From Acidobacteriaceae bacterium (GTDB lineage: Bacteria > Acidobacteriota > Terriglobia > Terriglobales > Acidobacteriaceae): a stretch of 64,000 nt of DNA. This document shows positions 1 through 6,734 of the stretch, one piece after another. The notes under the pieces are model-generated. The model had not been told where the DNA came from. It saw only the letters and a list, made by a program, of their open reading frames with translations, and searched no databases. The translations under genes and the position numbers were made by a program. The stretch is from assembly GCA_021323655.1 (NCBI GenBank), contig JAJPKO010000036.1, positions 1 to 64,000 on the forward strand, read 5' to 3'. Numbering within the stretch: the stretch's first letter is position 1; each line of letters starts with the position of its first letter.

Positions 1-21
1 AGGAAGACCGCATGCGCGGCG

Positions 22-1533
22 TCAGGGAATCCGGCTCGCGAATGCGATGCCCTCGCACAGTTCAGAGCCGTGCTGGAAATCGCTACTTACACCACGGGCT
101 GCTAAGGGAGTTGGATGACCATTTAAATACAGGTACGCATTCCCTGTGGAAGCATCGGTCGGTGAACCGTAGAGCCAGTTTTCTGCCGTAGGGTTGAGAT
201 AGTGGACCGAGGGGAACTGGGCAGCAGCCGCAGAGAATGCTGCTGAAGCAGAAGCAGAAGCCGCTTGAGGTCCAATAAAAAAGAGTTGCGCATTTGGAAT
301 GCAATTCTGCAGTTGAGAAAGAAATTGGGCCGCGGCCTGTTGTTCGGCAGGCTCATTCTGAGGATCATTCACGCCTCCCATGATGACCACAATGTCAGGA
401 TCTGGATAGCACAAGTCGGTTTGTTCACGCTGAACAAAATTTTTCTGTGGAGAGTATGGTCCTGTCGAAATAAAGCCGCTTCCACCCAAGCCACTTTCCC
501 ACCAATTGAGGTTCAGATACTCGCCCAGAATTTGACCGTACCCGCTACCATAAACTCCTGATGGCTGGTCCTGCTCATATTGGGTCAATGCTGCTTCTAC
601 CAGGGCTGGCGCCGTCCAGGAGTCGCCAAACAATACTAATTTTTGAGGATTTATTGGTGTCTGAGGAGCCGATATTGTATCTGTGCCTGAAGTAATAATG
701 CCGAAGAAAGGGGTGGCTCTCGTAAAGTTAAGCTTTATCTGCCTTTGCCGTTTGTCCCTGAACTGCACTTTGTAATAAAGCTTGTGCGGAAATTTCAGGC
801 TTGCAGGTACCCAAATCCAATCTGTTGTTGTCCATACGCCGTCCACCCATAAGCGATATCGGTCATACGGCTGAATTACAAACTCAAATTGCTGGCAGTC
901 GCAGGTAAAAGCAACACGATAGGACTGCAATACCTGGATCGAGGGGTCTGGAACGACTGCTCCATTGCTGAGTGGATTGGTGTTTTGTACCAGGGGAGGC
1001 CCCTCAAATCGAAATACAGAAGATGTCTGCGGGTAGGTGATGTTGTTTTGATCGCTGATCTGAGACTGATCAAACTGCGACGTGACCGTTGCCGCGTCTG
1101 CTGCTAAATCGAATCCGGGAACAGCCGTAGCGCTGGCATTGAGAATAGTGCTGTCCAATGGCGTTCCGTAGACAATCGTCCCAGGATTCCATTGGATCGC
1201 GGGCGAGCCCTGTTTGACCATGAAAGAAATCTGTGCGGAAGCAGGAGCATAATCCAGATTGCCCTGCTGTTGCGCTGTGATGGTGACAGTACCAGCTCCA
1301 GTTATGGTGAGAAGGCGCCCGTTCAGGGTCGCGGGTCCGGACGCTGATAACGTGACCGGAAGCCCGGACGAGGCGAGCGCAATCACCTGAAAAGGTGCGA
1401 CGCCATATACCTGGTCCTGGATTGGAACAATGTGAATCGTTTGGGATTGTTGTGCCTTTGCTGATGCTGTGAAAACCAAGGCTGATACAAGAGGGAAAGC
1501 AAGGAGTTTCCTCCACACATTCCAATGGCGCAT
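22..1533 (-). CDS. Secreted SGNH/GDSL hydrolase with N-terminal Ig/MBG-like repeats
   Basis: The protein has 503 residues and opens with a signal peptide (KLLAFPLVSALVFTASAKAQ). Residues ~31-140 resemble the MBG/Ig-like repeats common in acidobacterial secreted proteins (QVYGVAPF and IVYGTPLDST near the repeat starts). A beta-rich stretch follows, and from ~300 an SGNH hydrolase domain begins with the block-I GDSW motif (nucleophile Ser305) and a GGVND block near 383. A late His (NGHPTPLA) would complete the catalytic site. It is probably an exported carbohydrate esterase; the substrate is not readable from sequence. The gene stands alone, convergent with nothing visible to its left and tail-to-head with rsmE to its right. 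The family is fairly sure, the substrate unknown. Confidence 0.75.
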   Translation of the reverse strand: MRHWNVWRKLLAFPLVSALVFTASAKAQQSQTIHIVPIQDQVYGVAPFQVIALASSGLPVTLSASGPATLNGRLLTITGAGTVTITAQQQGNLDYAPASAQISFMVKQGSPAIQWNPGTIVYGTPLDSTILNASATAVPGFDLAADAATVTSQFDQSQISDQNNITYPQTSSVFRFEGPPLVQNTNPLSNGAVVPDPSIQVLQSYRVAFTCDCQQFEFVIQPYDRYRLWVDGVWTTTDWIWVPASLKFPHKLYYKVQFRDKRQRQIKLNFTRATPFFGIITSGTDTISAPQTPINPQKLVLFGDSWTAPALVEAALTQYEQDQPSGVYGSGYGQILGEYLNLNWWESGLGGSGFISTGPYSPQKNFVQREQTDLCYPDPDIVVIMGGVNDPQNEPAEQQAAAQFLSQLQNCIPNAQLFFIGPQAASASASAAFSAAAAQFPSVHYLNPTAENWLYGSPTDASTGNAYLYLNGHPTPLAARGVSSDFQHGSELCEGIAFASRIP

Positions 1534-1696
1534 CTCAACTCCGAATCAAAAGATATGTGAACAGTTAAGCGGCACCAAATATGGTGTTCAAAACTTTTAC
1601 TTGTGGTCTGGAATCACTGAAGGGGGAGGGTTCTTTCAGGATTTGGCAACTTATATATCAAACAAGAACGGCAGTTGCAATCAGAAAAATTGTGCC

Positions 1697-1719
1697 GTCG
1701 TCTCCTTTCAGGAGACGAC
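1697..1719 (-). terminator. Intrinsic terminator of rsmE
   Basis: A perfect 9-bp stem (GTCGTCTCC / GGAGACGAC) with a 5-nt loop lies about 35 bases past the rsmE stop. On the minus strand a T-run (ATTTTTC) follows about 7 bases later. An outer TGTGCC/GGCACA pair at 1691-1696 and 1729-1734 could lengthen the stem through an internal loop. Confidence 0.6.
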
Positions 1720-1753
1720 TTGTGAGGTGGCACAGAAGAGAACCAAAGGTATC

Positions 1754-2485
1754 TTATTCCAGCAGCGCAGCCACCACGGAGGTTGCGGTCATCGCCGCCG
1801 TCTCAGCCCGAAGGATGCGCGGTCCCAGGCCCACCGGCCGCCATCCCTCCGAATCGAAGAGCGCTTCTTCTTCCGCCGTCCATCCACCTTCCGGGCCCAC
1901 GGCCATGCGAATCGCGGGCATTTCGTCTCCGGAGTTTTTGAGCGCCTCTTCCACTGCGCGACGCAGTGTTGTTGAGCGCTCCTGCTCGGCCAGCAACAAA
2001 CGCACGGCATCGCTGGACTGCCGGGCGGCCGTCTTCAGCGGCAGGACGTCTTCGACTTTCGGCACATCGGAGCGGCGCGATTGCTGCGCTGCCTCACGCG
2101 CAATCTTCCGCCAGCGCTCTACTCTCTTTTCCGCCGATTGCACCAGGTGCTTTTCACTCCGGCGCGCGATGATGGGGATGATCCGCTCCACTCCAAGTTC
2201 CGTCGCTTTCTCAATGGCCCATTCCAGGCGGTCAAACTTGAAGATGGAAAGCAGCAGCGTGATGGGCAGCGCCGGATCGGCTTCCACTTCTGCGACCAAA
2301 TTGAAGCGCACGGCATCGCCCGCAATTCCAGCAATTACGGCATGCCAAACGCGATTTCCGGCGACGATGTCGTACTCCATGCCCGCCTGCGCGCGTAGCA
2401 CGCGAATGAGGTGCGCGGCCTGCTCGCCTGTGAGCGATGCGGTCCCTTCGTCCCATGTATCGGCAATCCAGCGACGGCGTGTCAT
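1754..2485 (-). CDS. rsmE: 16S rRNA (uracil-1498-N3)-methyltransferase RsmE
   Basis: RsmE methylates N3 of U1498 in 16S rRNA within the 30S subunit, using SAM in a SPOUT (trefoil-knot) fold. The 243-residue length is normal for the family. Residues 1-~70 form the PUA-like N-terminal part (EQAAHLIRVLRAQAG). The C-terminal knot shows the signature AVGPEGGWTAEEE (~197-209) and LGPRILRAETAA (~221-232), which bind SAM. It is transcribed leftward and seems monocistronic, with a hairpin terminator about 35 bases downstream and a Lys-rich micro-ORF about 75 bases upstream on the same strand. Confidence 0.95.
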   Translation of the reverse strand: MTRRRWIADTWDEGTASLTGEQAAHLIRVLRAQAGMEYDIVAGNRVWHAVIAGIAGDAVRFNLVAEVEADPALPITLLLSIFKFDRLEWAIEKATELGVERIIPIIARRSEKHLVQSAEKRVERWRKIAREAAQQSRRSDVPKVEDVLPLKTAARQSSDAVRLLLAEQERSTTLRRAVEEALKNSGDEMPAIRMAVGPEGGWTAEEEALFDSEGWRPVGLGPRILRAETAAMTATSVVAALLE

Positions 2486-2558
2486 CTCATCCCATTGTCA
2501 CAGAAACACGAAGGGGAACGCTTGGTGCGTCCCCCTTCTGTGTTGCCTGGAACGAAGT

Positions 2559-2627
2559 TTACTTCTTCTTTGAAGTTTTCTTAGCTGCCTTCTTCGTTGC
2601 CTTCTTGGCTGCCTTTTTCGTTGCCAT
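2559..2627 (-). CDS. 22-residue Lys/Ala-rich histone-H1-like peptide
   Basis: This very short frame encodes 22 residues made almost only of Lys, Ala and Thr in an AAKK/ATKK repeat, ending TSKKK. The ATG has a good Shine-Dalgarno (GGGAG, 8 bases before the start), and the TAA stop is in frame. The composition is that of the C-terminal tails of histone H1 and bacterial HU/AlgP-like proteins, so binding to DNA or RNA is a reasonable guess. It lies upstream of rsmE on the same strand with about 73 bases between. A chance repeat is possible, but the SD and the exact in-frame repeat favour a real gene. Confidence 0.55.
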   Translation of the reverse strand: MATKKAAKKATKKAAKKTSKKK

Positions 2628-2775
2628 GTTCTATTCTCCCTATTTGTGTACTGCGGAACCTCTTCGCCGCAGTTAACGAATGTATAGAGTGCGGAGGAAC
2701 GAGTGTCAAGAAAAAAATGCAGAGAAAATCAATTTCTGCCGCGTTCGAAAAATACTCAGCGAGCAGGCAGCACGC

Positions 2776-3522
2776 TCACAGCACACGCGAGTGATGAAGG
2801 ACCATCAGCGCAATTCCCGAAAAGATGTCGTGCCACGCATGCGCGATCATTCCCGGGCGCAGGCTTCCGCGTGCAAGCGCAGGCGCGCAAAACATCGCGC
2901 CATACGCGGTGATGGCGATGATTCCCGCGACCCCTTCATATCCATGCGCAACACCAAACAGGAGTGAGGAAGCGAGCACTCCGACCCACAAGCGGCGACT
3001 TACGCTTGCAAACTGCTGCAGAAGATAACCGCGAAACACAAGCTCTTCGCAGATTCCCGCGGAGACACTGAGGAGAATCCAAAGCATCAATTCCACAGTG
3101 TTCTCAGGCGCGAGTTGTGCCAGGGTCTTCTCCGGAACTGAAAAATGCGCGAGGTGGAGGAGCATTCCAATCGCCGCAAGCACAATGGAAGCCGCAATCC
3201 AGAAAGCGGCGGCAATCGCCAGGTCCTGTCCCCACTCGCGGCCAGATGTTGGCCAGACGCCAAGTAGCTGCCGCAGAGGCACGCCGCGCATTCTTATTCC
3301 CCACCACACCACGGCCGCCAATACCCATTCCCACACTAGCGTGAGGACGTATTGCAGTACGTGGTGCTGGCCAATGTTCTGGTGCGCCGTGCGTTGGCCG
3401 CCAAGAAATGAGAACAGAAGGACCGGAGCAATCAGCAGTGCCGTATGCCACCACGGCGCGATCGGACGCTGTGGAACTTCCTGCATAGTTTTGATTGTTT
3501 CATGCGGGTCTGCTATCTTCAT
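2776..3522 (-). CDS. CPBP family intramembrane glutamic endopeptidase
   Basis: This is a polytopic membrane protein of about 248 residues with the three motifs of the CPBP (CAAX prenyl protease/bacteriocin-processing, Abi) family: EELVFRG (EExxxR), FGVAH (FxxxH) and HAWHD. These residues form the active site of Rce1-like glutamate proteases inside the membrane. The chosen ATG at 3522 leaves 37 bases to the divergent thiolase start; an ATG at 3486 is an alternative, and longer starts would overlap the thiolase. No strong Shine-Dalgarno is visible for any of them. The substrate is unknown. Confidence 0.8.
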
Positions 3523-3559
3523 CGGTTCGCCGTCTAATAAAAGGTGGGGATTTTTTGTC

Positions 3560-4744
3560 ATGGAAGATGTAGTGATCGTTTCCGCCGTGCGCACGCCGGT
3601 GGCCAAATTTCAAGGGGCCCTGTCGGGCTTTTCCGCTACTCAACTGGGCGCCATCGCCGTGCGTGAAGCGGTGAAGCGCGCAAAGCTCGATCCCGCGCAG
3701 GTGGACGAGTGCATCATGGGCAACGTGGTTTCCGCCGGTCTCGGGCAAAACCCAGCCCGGCAGGCCGCACTCTTTGGAGGACTTCCACCCTCCGTCGGCG
3801 CCATGACCATCAATAAAGTGTGCGGCTCAGGATTGAAGGCGGTTGCTCTTGCCGCACAGGCCATTCAGACAGGCAACTCTGAAATCGTTGTTGCAGGCGG
3901 GATGGAGTCCATGACGAACGCACCCTATCTCCTGCCGCAGGCGCGCAGCGGTTTCCGCATGGGGAATGCGACTGCGGTGGATTCCATGGTCCACGACGGT
4001 CTGTGGGACGTTTACAACAACTACCACATGGGCCAGACTGCGGAAAACGTCGCCGAGAAATACAAGATCACCCGCGAAGAGCAGGATGAGTACGCGCTCA
4101 ACTCGCACCGTAAGGCCGCAGCCGCATGGAAGGAAGGCCGCTTCTGTTCGCAGGTAGTCCCCGTTGAGGTGCCGGCAAAGAAAAAAGGGGAAGCGCCGAC
4201 ACTCTTTGAGCGTGATGAGTCAGTACGCGAGGATGCGAGCATTGAGGCCCTTCGCGCCCTCAAGCCCGCCTTCAAAAAAGACGGCACGGTGACTGCGGGC
4301 AATGCTCCGGGAGTAAATGATGCCGCCGCCGCACTGGTGGTCATGTCCGCTGCAAAAGCAAAGTCGCTTGGTCTGGAGCCGTTGGTCCACATCCGTGCGC
4401 AGGCCACCAGTGGAGTCGAGCCGCAATGGGTCATGATGGCGCCCGTCAGCGGCGTGCAGAGAGTAGTCGCCAAATCCGGGTGGAGCACAGACAGCGTGGA
4501 CCTATATGAACTGAATGAGGCTTTTGCGGTGCAAGCCATTGCGGTGACGCGTGAGCTGGGCATTCCGTTTGAGAAAGTCAATGTGAATGGCGGCTCGGTC
4601 GCCATCGGACATCCCATCGGTGCCAGCGGCGCACGCGTTCTGGTTACTCTCATCTACGAAATGATTCGACGCAATGTGCATCGCGGCGTGGCCGCACTGT
4701 GCCTGGGTGGCGGGAACTCTGTTGCTATGGCAGTGGAGAGATGA
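3560..4744 (+). CDS. Acetyl-CoA C-acetyltransferase (thiolase)
   Basis: This thiolase interconverts two acetyl-CoA with acetoacetyl-CoA, or cleaves 3-ketoacyl-CoA, in the cytoplasm. The protein has 394 residues, the usual length. The nucleophilic Cys88 lies in NKVCGSG, His351 in [16 protein letters not shown], and the second catalytic Cys381 in CLGGGNS. The ATG at 3560 follows a G-rich Shine-Dalgarno (AGGTGGGG) and the protein begins [17 protein letters not shown], as in AtoB/ThlA. The next gene, a methyltransferase, overlaps its stop by ATGA, so the two are probably co-translated. The sequence cannot separate a biosynthetic from a degradative role. Confidence 0.93.
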
Positions 4745-5499
4745 AGGCAACAGAGCGCTTTACCGGACGGGTGGAAAACTACCGTCAGCACCGGCCACGG
4801 TATCCCGAAGCCATTGTGGACCTTCTGCATGCAGAATGCGGATTGACGGTGGATTCCCGTATCGCCGATGTTGCCGCGGGGACGGGGCTGCTGGCAGAAA
4901 GCTTTCTTGCTCGCGCTTACAACGTAATTGCTGTAGAGCCGAACGACGAGATGCGTGCCGCCTGCTCGACCCTGATGGGACGCTTCCTCAAACTTCAATG
5001 TCTTGCAGGTACGGCAGAAGACACGGGCCTTCCTGCGCATTCCATAAATATGATTACCGTCGGCCAGGCGATGCACTGGTTTGATCTCAAGCGCACACGA
5101 GATGAATTTGTGCGCGTGCTGCGCCCCGGCGGCTGGTGCGCCGTCATCTATAACCATCGCAAACCTGGCGGAGATGCTTTTCACGACGAGTACGAACGCT
5201 TGCTGCAAACGTTTGGTCTCGATTACGCATCAGTCTGCGAGCGCCACCTCACGCCGCAAAAGCTCAAAGGCTTTTTTGCTCCTTGCGAGATGAAGCAGGC
5301 CACATTTCCCAATGCGCAATCCTTAGATATAGAAGGACTGGAGGGCCGGATACTCTCCTCCTCCTATATGCCTTCTGTGGACCATGCAGACCATGCTGCA
5401 ATGCGCGCGGCCATTGCAGAGCTGTTCCATAAGCATGAGCGAGAGGGAAAGGTCAGTCTCGAATACGAATGCGTAGTCTGCTATGGGCAATTGTCTTGA
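4741..5499 (+). CDS. Class I SAM-dependent methyltransferase
   Basis: The protein has 252 residues. Motif I ([14 protein letters not shown]) and the acidic post-I loop (AVEPNDEM) form the SAM site of a Rossmann methyltransferase of the Methyltransf_11/UbiE-like type, and GQAMHWFD follows where motif III/IV is expected. The ATG overlaps the thiolase stop (ATGA), which points to translational coupling, though no shared pathway is evident. The substrate is unknown; relatives act on small molecules such as quinones or fatty acids. Confidence 0.8.
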
Positions 5500-5618
5500 G
5501 CGGGCCGCTGACAACGTTCGACATGGCGCAATTTATATAAAATGTCGCAGGGCAAATTTTAATAGACGATGTAAGCGCTTCCATTTATCATCGCTTTGAC
5601 TCTCCCTGGAGGAAGCTT

Positions 5619-6734
5619 TTGTTCCAACGTCTTTCTTTTCTGGCCTTGTTGGCCTGCTTGTTCCTCTCCGGCCCCCCGCTCCATGCGCAGCGCTGGCCGG
5701 AAGAAAAAGCCAAAGCCTGGTACGCGCAGCAGCCCTGGCTCGTAGGCAGCAATTACATTCCGGAAGATGCCATCAACCAGCTCGAAATGTGGCAGGCCGA
5801 TACCTTCGATCCTCAGCAGATAGAAAAAGAATTGGGCTGGGCACAAAGCATCGGCATGAACACGATGCGCGTCTTTCTGCATGACCTGCTCTGGCAGCAG
5901 GATGAGGCCGGTTTCCGCCAGCGCATGGACACCTTTCTTAGGATCGCCAGCAAACACCACATTCGGCCCGTCTTTGTGCTCTTTGATTCCTGCTGGGACC
6001 CTGACCCGAAGCTGGGACCGCAGCATCCGCCGATTCCCGGTGTCCATAACTCAGGCTGGGTGCAGAGCCCCGGTGACAAGGCTTTGGCTGACAAATCACA
6101 GTACCCGCGCCTGAAGGCCTACGTACAGGGAGTCATTAGGTCATTTGGGAAAGACCAGCGCGTGCTGGCATGGGACCTGTGGAATGAGCCAAGCAATGGT
6201 AACAACAGCTCCTATGGAAAAGCCGAGATGCAGAACAAAGGCGAGCTGATTCAGGCATTGCTTCCGCAGGTCTTCGCCTGGGCGCGCGAGGAGCACCCCA
6301 TTCAGCCACTCACCAGCGGCGTGTGGGAGGGAGACTGGTCCTCACTTGACACCATGGACCCCATTTCCCGCATTCAGATTCAGGAGTCCGACGTCATCTC
6401 CTTCCATAACTATGGATGGCCCGAGGACTTTGAGCAGCACGTGCGCTGGCTCCAGCAGTTCCATCGCCCGCTTATCTGCACGGAATATATGGCACGCGGC
6501 GCGGGCAGCACCTTCGATACGATTTTGCCCATTGCGAAAAAGTACCATGTTGCCGCCATCAACTGGGGCTTTGTCGCCGGAAAAACGCAGACGTATCTCC
6601 CATGGGATTCATGGCAGCGCCCGTATGTCCTGATTAAGCCGACAGTCTGGTTCCACGACATCTTCTATCCGGATGGAAGGCCTTATCGCCAGCATGAAGT
6701 GGATTTAATTCGAGAGCTGACCAGCGAGAAGTAG
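5619..6734 (+). CDS. Secreted GH5-like (cellulase family) glycoside hydrolase
   Basis: The gene begins with TTG, supported by a strong Shine-Dalgarno (TGGAGGAAG). A 23-residue signal peptide (LSFLALLACLFLSGPPLHAQ) marks export. The 371-residue protein has the TIM-barrel landmarks of GH5/clan GH-A: Arg84 in NTMRVF, the acid/base Glu190 in DLWNEPSN, HNYG at ~263, and the likely nucleophile Glu289 in ICTEYMA. It probably attacks beta-linked plant or microbial polysaccharides; the subfamily and linkage cannot be told. It ends 13 bases before the stop of the broken DUF433 gene on the other strand. Confidence 0.8.
   Translation: MFQRLSFLALLACLFLSGPPLHAQRWPEEKAKAWYAQQPWLVGSNYIPEDAINQLEMWQADTFDPQQIEKELGWAQSIGMNTMRVFLHDLLWQQDEAGFRQRMDTFLRIASKHHIRPVFVLFDSCWDPDPKLGPQHPPIPGVHNSGWVQSPGDKALADKSQYPRLKAYVQGVIRSFGKDQRVLAWDLWNEPSNGNNSSYGKAEMQNKGELIQALLPQVFAWAREEHPIQPLTSGVWEGDWSSLDTMDPISRIQIQESDVISFHNYGWPEDFEQHVRWLQQFHRPLICTEYMARGAGSTFDTILPIAKKYHVAAINWGFVAGKTQTYLPWDSWQRPYVLIKPTVWFHDIFYPDGRPYRQHEVDLIRELTSEK

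Follow-up and report, generated by a model that had tools for sequence, protein, structure and literature searches.

Among the Lys/Ala-repeat proteins of the histone H1-like type are Chlamydia Hc1/Hc2, AlgP and the Bordetella-type H1, while ribosomal protein THX and similar tiny ribosomal peptides are stand-alone, highly basic and about 25 residues long. The size of Hc2 varies with its number of repeats, between 165 and 237 aa (PMC2848022). Dual-function RNAs of the SgrS/SgrT kind are small stand-alone transcripts with a 5' ORF, a conserved downstream segment and an intrinsic terminator, all of which they have in common with the locus described here. According to PMC4021124, SgrS remains in Yersinia, which lacks the sgrT ORF, and in E. 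coli O157:H7, where sgrT has an altered start codon; PMC5521070 argues for peptide coding by small RNAs in general.

The micro-gene analysed here lies in a window of 64,000 nucleotides (the whole stretch of DNA that was analysed) from an Acidobacteriaceae bacterium and encodes a Lys/Ala-repeat micropeptide whose size, like that of Hc2, varies by repeat number. In contrast to Hc2, which is well over 100 residues long, the micropeptide has 12-30 residues and is the product of a separate gene with its own conserved UTR; the HC1/HC2 profile gave no match for it, and so short a peptide could hardly score. By comparison with the general description of THX, it is likewise tiny, basic and stand-alone, but it is repetitive and contains no Arg in 150 copies. 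Lys-rich proteins of the DUF6496 type (PF20106), found in the same genomes, also have a MATKK-type start after a Shine-Dalgarno (SD) element and a Lys/Ala repeat but, unlike the micropeptide, are 79-132 aa long and carry a C-terminal domain. As judged by sequence, the locus has two attributes of a dual-function small RNA, namely its own promoter and terminator (144/150 copies each) and an ORF under coding selection. The retention of SgrS without an intact sgrT parallels the copies described below in which the Lys/Ala ORF is gone, and is the closest precedent in kind; unlike in SgrS/SgrT, the ORF of the micro-gene is a Lys/Ala repeat and makes up some 40% of the predicted transcript. No paper on this gene, or on such small RNAs or peptides in the phylum, was found in the open-licence literature. 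The micro-gene appears to be widespread in an order of soil bacteria, and searches of the Pfam, NCBIfam and Rfam libraries gave no match to it. We consider that it probably specifies a bifunctional RNA, at once the messenger of a Lys/Ala micropeptide and the carrier of an RNA function independent of the ORF.

Organisation of the micro-gene

The micro-gene is read on the minus strand, and its parts are the following, from the promoter to the next gene (window coordinates; basis of each assignment in brackets):

2704..2709, minus strand: -35 hexamer TTGACA, with a 17-nt spacer to the -10 (by eye; relatives)
2681..2686, minus strand: -10 hexamer TATACA (by eye; TTGAC-N18/19-TATA in 144/150 copies)
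2651..2672, minus strand: 5' UTR hairpin 1, CTGCGG...CCGCAG, at the predicted 5' end of the transcript (fold; covariation in relatives)
2631..2640, minus strand: Shine-Dalgarno element GGGAGAATAG (sequence; alignment of relatives)
2559..2627, minus strand: micro-ORF MATKKAAKKATKKAAKKTSKKK and stop, 22 aa, ATG to TAA (ORF list; homologues; coding selection)
2543..2548, minus strand: AGGCAA motif in the 3' UTR (sequence; recurs in the 3' UTRs of relatives and is repeated in ORF-less copies)
2510..2538, minus strand: intrinsic-terminator-like hairpin GAAGGGGGACGC / GCGTTCCCCTTC, ahead of rsmE (terminator scan; fold)
2485..1754, minus strand: rsmE (PF04452), the next gene after the terminator-like hairpin (Pfam match)

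The initial annotation had placed here a gene for a 22-residue peptide with a proper SD, start and stop; position and length hold, the strand, which had been left unstated, is minus, and a GGGAG SD, an ATG and a TAA are all in place, but the peptide MATKKAAKKATKKAAKKTSKKK has 11 lysines by count and not the 12 claimed. The element GGGAGAATAG ends 3 nt ahead of the ATG, and its GGGAG core 8 nt ahead. The promoter scanner, whose rule demands a T as the last base of the -10, called no promoter at the micro-gene. With its consensus-like promoter and its own terminator, the unit is predicted to be transcribed separately into a small RNA of some 165-170 nt, whose fold is much more stable than those of its shuffles (z -6.08). 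Rfam gave no match at the gathering threshold in window positions 1-6000 and, at E values up to 5, a single sub-threshold hit in the region 2480-2780, on the opposite strand; neither in Pfam nor in NCBIfam was a family found for the 22-aa peptide or for a 30-aa homologue. On the plus strand, a 79-aa Phe/Ala-rich open frame (2437-2676) mirrors the Lys/Ala repeat and is probably not a gene.

Conservation across Terriglobales

A DNA search with window positions 2500-2780 as the query matched 70 of 120 relatives, and in part of these the sole match was to other Lys/Ala genes. All 29 of the best-matching loci from other genomes (L003-L031) contain a homologous Lys/Ala micro-ORF and the promoter, in a sample biased by its having been picked for similarity to the whole unit. 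A scan of GTDB contigs with the pattern GGGAGAATAGN{2,6}ATGGCNNNNAARAAR returned at least 117 stretches; among the matches listed, a micro-ORF of 12-30 residues is present in 103 of 117 (in L117 it is cut by the stretch edge), and the remaining 14 are other genes, including L084, with an ORF cut after 6 residues, L078, with a 124-aa Lys/Ala protein, and L104. The genera with the micro-ORF among the matches listed are Edaphobacter, Granulicella, Acidobacterium, Terracidiphilus and Candidatus Sulfotelmatobacter. In the 11 loci examined from outside the order (L032-L042), the short pattern matches longer genes, such as that for the 149-aa Lys/Ala protein of L041.

The pooled set comprises 198 loci, 166 with a complete micro-ORF (150 non-redundant) and 32 without. 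The promoter pattern TTGAC-N18/19-TATA is found in 144 of the 150 copies, with identical spacing in 142; two of the six others are cut short and four have an altered -10. A GGGG..CCCC stem-loop lies downstream of 144 of the 150 ORFs, the exceptions being two copies cut short, one with Ns, two with a similar stem of another core and one with one C fewer. Many loci were retrieved with patterns that include the SD, ATGGC and KK, so that these features are biased; the patterns do not cover promoter, terminator, ends or lengths. A search of 21 genomes for the exact motif GGGGACGC..GCGTCCCC found it in 10, at one site in nine and at two in G004, and the site is at the unit in eight of the ten (G002 and G006 are outside the comparison); it is absent from the window's own genome, where the stem has a G-U pair, and from 8/8 f2 genomes.

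A sequence-only model of the 5' half of the unit, used for an order-wide search, matched 238 of 298 genomes of Terriglobales (206 of the 251 good ones) in 65 of 70 genera. Thirteen of the 238 were read as having no Lys/Ala ORF in the unit: G031, G334, G358, G389, G412, G420, G502, G505, G521, G526, G543, G554 and G610 (in G526 the downstream end alone is visible, and the G521 match is a 79-aa Lys/Ala gene elsewhere). When extended to the class, the model search matched 67 of 250 genomes, 13 of these outside the family; a Lys-rich ORF was detected by script at ten of those 13 loci and at none of the three in G744, G111 and G709. In G086, G099 and G835, from other families of the class, ORFs of 14-21 aa are accompanied by a similar SD and terminator; the promoter is visible in G086 and G835, and the G099 sequence ends before the promoter region. 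G810 has a 94-aa Lys/Ala ORF, and the ORF of G847 looks unrelated. At the level of sequence comparison, the micro-gene is confirmed as real and conserved across most Terriglobales, and the same micro-ORF with conserved SD and Lys/Ala repeat, which the initial annotation proposed to look for in relatives, is found there.

Coding selection on the Lys/Ala ORF

Over the 150 non-redundant copies, the peptide ranges from 12 to 30 residues with peaks at 22 and 13, the smallest products (12-13 residues) being of the type MATKKKAKKKKKH. Its N-terminus is MATKK in 132 copies, its C-terminus is KKK in 93 and KKH in 44, and its overall composition is 51% Lys and 30% Ala, acidic residues and Arg being absent. 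Among the 44 copies of 22 aa, pairwise differences at codon positions 1, 2 and 3 number 3807, 3285 and 9672; in frame, 6068 codon differences are synonymous vs 4866 non-synonymous, and the corresponding figures for the other two frames are 1389 vs 10470 and 144 vs 11582, all counted over pairs that have common ancestry and are not independent events. The 13-, 14-, 15- and 23-residue classes show the same codon pattern. This concentration of differences at third codon positions indicates that the peptide is under selection, and comparison of the copies shows an ORF that, by its pattern of change, is translated and kept by coding selection. Lack of conservation of the frame in relatives, which had been named as the finding that would speak against the peptide gene, is not what the 44 copies display, and the earlier interpretation is, overall, partly supported. 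It did not include the separate transcription unit, the 5' UTR hairpins kept in relatives or the survival of the unit past the loss of the Lys/Ala ORF in several lineages. As to function, we infer from composition only that the peptide may act on the nucleoid or on RNA.

Codon 2 is GCA in 147 of the 150 copies; in 569 mechanically picked neighbouring ORFs, GCA accounts for 13% of the Ala codons not after Lys. A bias towards AAG-GCA was also considered as an RNA motif inside the ORF and rejected: synonymous shuffles match the AGGCA count (154; mean 135.5, maximum 155), and several long Lys/Ala genes have the same bias.

Hairpins of the 5' UTR

The 5' UTR contains one or two hairpins, the second of which is missing in the two copies of the window's genus. 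A structure of 11 pairs was sketched by eye, and its pairs were tallied over the alignment of 76 sequences that RNAalifold was also given, where the f2 rows are out of register at hairpin 1. This structure has 90.5% of its cells paired and nine pairs with two-sided changes, a number reached by 13 of 500 shuffles. The covariation amounts to 0.322 vs 0.179 (sd 0.010) when shuffled (0 of 500) and to at most 0.076 when the structure is slid along the alignment, which supports the structure. RNAalifold, run on the 76-sequence alignment, returned no common structure and no pair. Pairing of the start codon with hairpin 1 (GCAAC/GUUGC, by eye) was dropped as a candidate, the window and L043 having no GUUGC.

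Units without the Lys/Ala ORF

In 30 genomes with a weak or no match to the model, the sequence ahead of rsmE was inspected directly, rsmE being present in 29. Promoter, GGGAG and terminator occur there without a Lys/Ala ORF in 11/11 g64, 10/11 g31 and 2/6 g44 loci, the GGGAG being kept also where there is no such ORF to translate; two g64 loci have an altered -10, and of the eleventh g31 locus (L249) the downstream end alone is visible. No unit stands upstream of rsmE in four g44 loci and in G544 (g34). Within g34, the units of G358, G543 and G610 are ORF-less, and the ORF is present in G458 and G465. In a tree of rsmE, a single gene (95 rows, bootstrap unsettled, g34 copies with the ORF left out), g31 and g64 (with G544) group together with support (100/96), and the g44 rows retaining a unit fall outside this clade. 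This placement implies at least two losses of the ORF, and counting g34 there were probably three.

In the g64 unit (11 loci), mean identity is 78.5%, vs 41.3% in the spacer to rsmE and 41.2% at rsmE fourfold sites; in the g31 unit (10 rows) the corresponding values are 60.1%, 35.6% and 40.5%. A 23-nt run, TGGGAGCGCAGGCAAACGCAACC, is invariant in 10/10 aligned g64 rows, L235 having been left out of the alignment as nearly identical to L233. The g64 terminator stem shows compensatory changes, and parts of the GGGAG...AGGCAA stretch are predicted to be paired. Viral contigs gave no match to the g64 core. On these comparisons the RNA-level argument appears strong only in g64, the g31 copies being less conserved.

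Short frames are left in these units, none of which is a Lys/Ala repeat. In 11/11 g64 copies, an ATG (6) or TTG (5) stands at the GGAG, overlaps the invariant run and starts a frame with (M/L)GAQANAT; 1-nt indels after the run split this shared frame into diverging ones, with 12-70 residues in all. Half of the g31 copies (5/10) have an ATG 19-26 nt past the GGGAG start, opening MR.GGK..., a GTG is found in 7/10, and in three the stretch examined is without a start codon. Such frames speak slightly against the RNA-level reading, since they may have a new coding role in g64 and g31.

The AGGCAA motif

AGGCAA is present in 24 of 26 ORF-less units, with 58 copies vs a mean of 2.2 and a maximum of 11 in single-base shuffles, a count to which related rows contribute and are not independent. 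It also lies in 83 of the 147 3' UTRs of units with the ORF, where dinucleotide shuffles give a mean of 11.0 and a maximum of 22. The extended form AGGCAAC is partly the foot of the terminator stem, in which AACAC pairs with GTGTT. By eye, seven of the ten g31 units (L234, L239, L243, L245, L248, L252 and L254) have [CG]CGGTGGCAAAG[AG]C[CT]GC, an apparent hairpin with GGCAAAG in its loop.

A messenger with a proposed RNA function

Promoter, 5' hairpins, GGGAG, AGGCAA and terminator are conserved where the ORF is gone, which suggests an RNA function without need of the Lys/Ala ORF; comparison supports it in g64, and we infer it elsewhere. In the bifunctional RNA proposed here, the consensus-like promoter, the strong SD and the GCA second codon would ensure high expression, and the abundant peptide, a free polycation resembling the tail of histone H1, would neutralise and bridge polyanions, the candidates being the nucleoid, rRNA, mRNA, polyphosphate or another. 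The RNA itself would work in trans through the GGGAG...AGGCAA stretch by pairing with targets (an Hfq gene is present in 11/11 genomes checked) or, alternatively, the same stretch would hold an RNA-binding protein. Lineages that have lost the ORF but kept the RNA offer a natural experiment separating small-protein from RNA roles. More tentatively, it is possible that the unit is an order-wide regulatory RNA of Acidobacteriota, characterised by its 5' hairpins, GGGAG and repeated AGGCAA, which also encodes a pure Lys/Ala polycation. One repeat would then provide codons and RNA recognition sites at once, the peptide being dispensable in several genera and the RNA mostly kept. If, in addition, the peptide binds the partners or targets of its own RNA, a minimal RNA-plus-chaperone unit would be contained in one transcript.

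If the transcript were only an mRNA, the peptide would be its sole product, and the ORF-less copies would be decaying relics in which promoter and terminator still linger, or would have started to encode another small peptide. Coding selection in the copies with the ORF is what such a gene would show; the g31 copies are more diverged, short non-Lys/Ala frames persist in ORF-less units, and an eroded ORF can be made out in the g64 core (ATGGCAACCAAG vs ACGCAACCAAG). However, at 78.5% identity the g64 unit is far above the 41% of rsmE fourfold sites, its 23-nt run is unchanged in 10/10 rows with no synonymous changes, and the frames past the run diverge via 1-nt indels; moreover, the ORF was lost in separate lineages and yet AGGCAA is retained in 24/26 units, and we regard a pure messenger as unlikely. 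The enrichment of AGGCAA in ORF-less units (58 vs 2.2) and in the 3' UTRs of the others (83/147 vs 11.0), like the GGCAAAG in an apparent hairpin loop of 7/10 g31 units, would also suit a sponge for an RNA-binding protein that reads this motif, translation being secondary and serving, for example, to time the release of the protein. Selection at the level of the peptide is nonetheless clear, and the motif falls partly within the terminator stem, which make the sponge a distinctly unlikely explanation; we know of no protein for the AGGCAA motif.

It is scarcely credible that the ORF is a chance or low-complexity artefact or the truncated end of a longer H1-like gene, although the repeat is of low complexity and the longer Lys/Ala proteins of L078, L179 and L190 begin with similar DNA: a chance ORF is rejected on coding selection, seen as the in-frame synonymous excess, and on the conservation of start, stop, promoter and terminator over 150 copies, while truncation is not supported by the three long paralogues, whose upstream sequences differ from that of the micro-gene and by eye do not have its promoter. 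In favour of a leader peptide or attenuator of rsmE, this gene follows the micro-ORF in the same orientation in the window, and in the clustering of mechanically picked neighbours it comes first downstream in that orientation at 39 loci (the window, where an overlapping ORF was picked, is outside the 39); in addition, 45/146 loci checked have the rsmE start motif MTRRR[WF] on that strand no more than 400 nt away. A terminator-like hairpin nevertheless stands between micro-ORF and rsmE. A downstream ORF is visible at 137/150 loci, and rsmE lies on the opposite strand at 16, as first or second gene, whereas two large clusters, of 41 and 24 loci, are followed by other opposite-strand ORFs. As the downstream gene and its orientation vary, a leader-peptide role is unlikely; on terminator and synteny it is rejected as highly improbable, the unit having no fixed place ahead of a gene to be regulated, and we know of no link between rsmE and lysine supply. 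The bifunctional RNA is the reading that we retain as the most probable.

Other Lys/Ala genes

Seven loci (L078, L179, L190, L212, L223, L225 and L228) encode Lys-rich proteins of 79-132 aa with a MATKK start (MAIKK in L190) after an SD, and have a C-terminal stretch in common where the end is visible; L179, the only one scanned, matches DUF6496, and the others were likened to it by eye. The second DNA match in the window's own genome, L002 (82% over 67 bp), is a different gene: at 1501-2052 on the minus strand (contig C61), it encodes a 183-aa protein with an acidic N-terminal half and a Lys/Ala C-terminal tail, whose weak YL1 match, just above the cut-off, is probably due to composition. In an unrelated phylum, L104, from a Candidatus Dependentiae MAG, encodes a 106-aa Lys/Arg protein with KKRVVRKAAKK units behind GGGAGAATAG.

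Two f2 genomes contain further tiny Lys/Ala ORFs, of 16 aa in L218 (G079) and 20 aa in L227 (G072), with promoter-like and terminator-like sequences that differ from those of the main unit; Lys/Ala micropeptide genes may have arisen more than once. In g319 (family f6), L270, L273, L275, L276 and L280 have Lys/Ala ORFs of 25-90 aa behind a different upstream region, which has in common a AACATTTTT...CATAAT run and an SD-proximal GGAGAAT.
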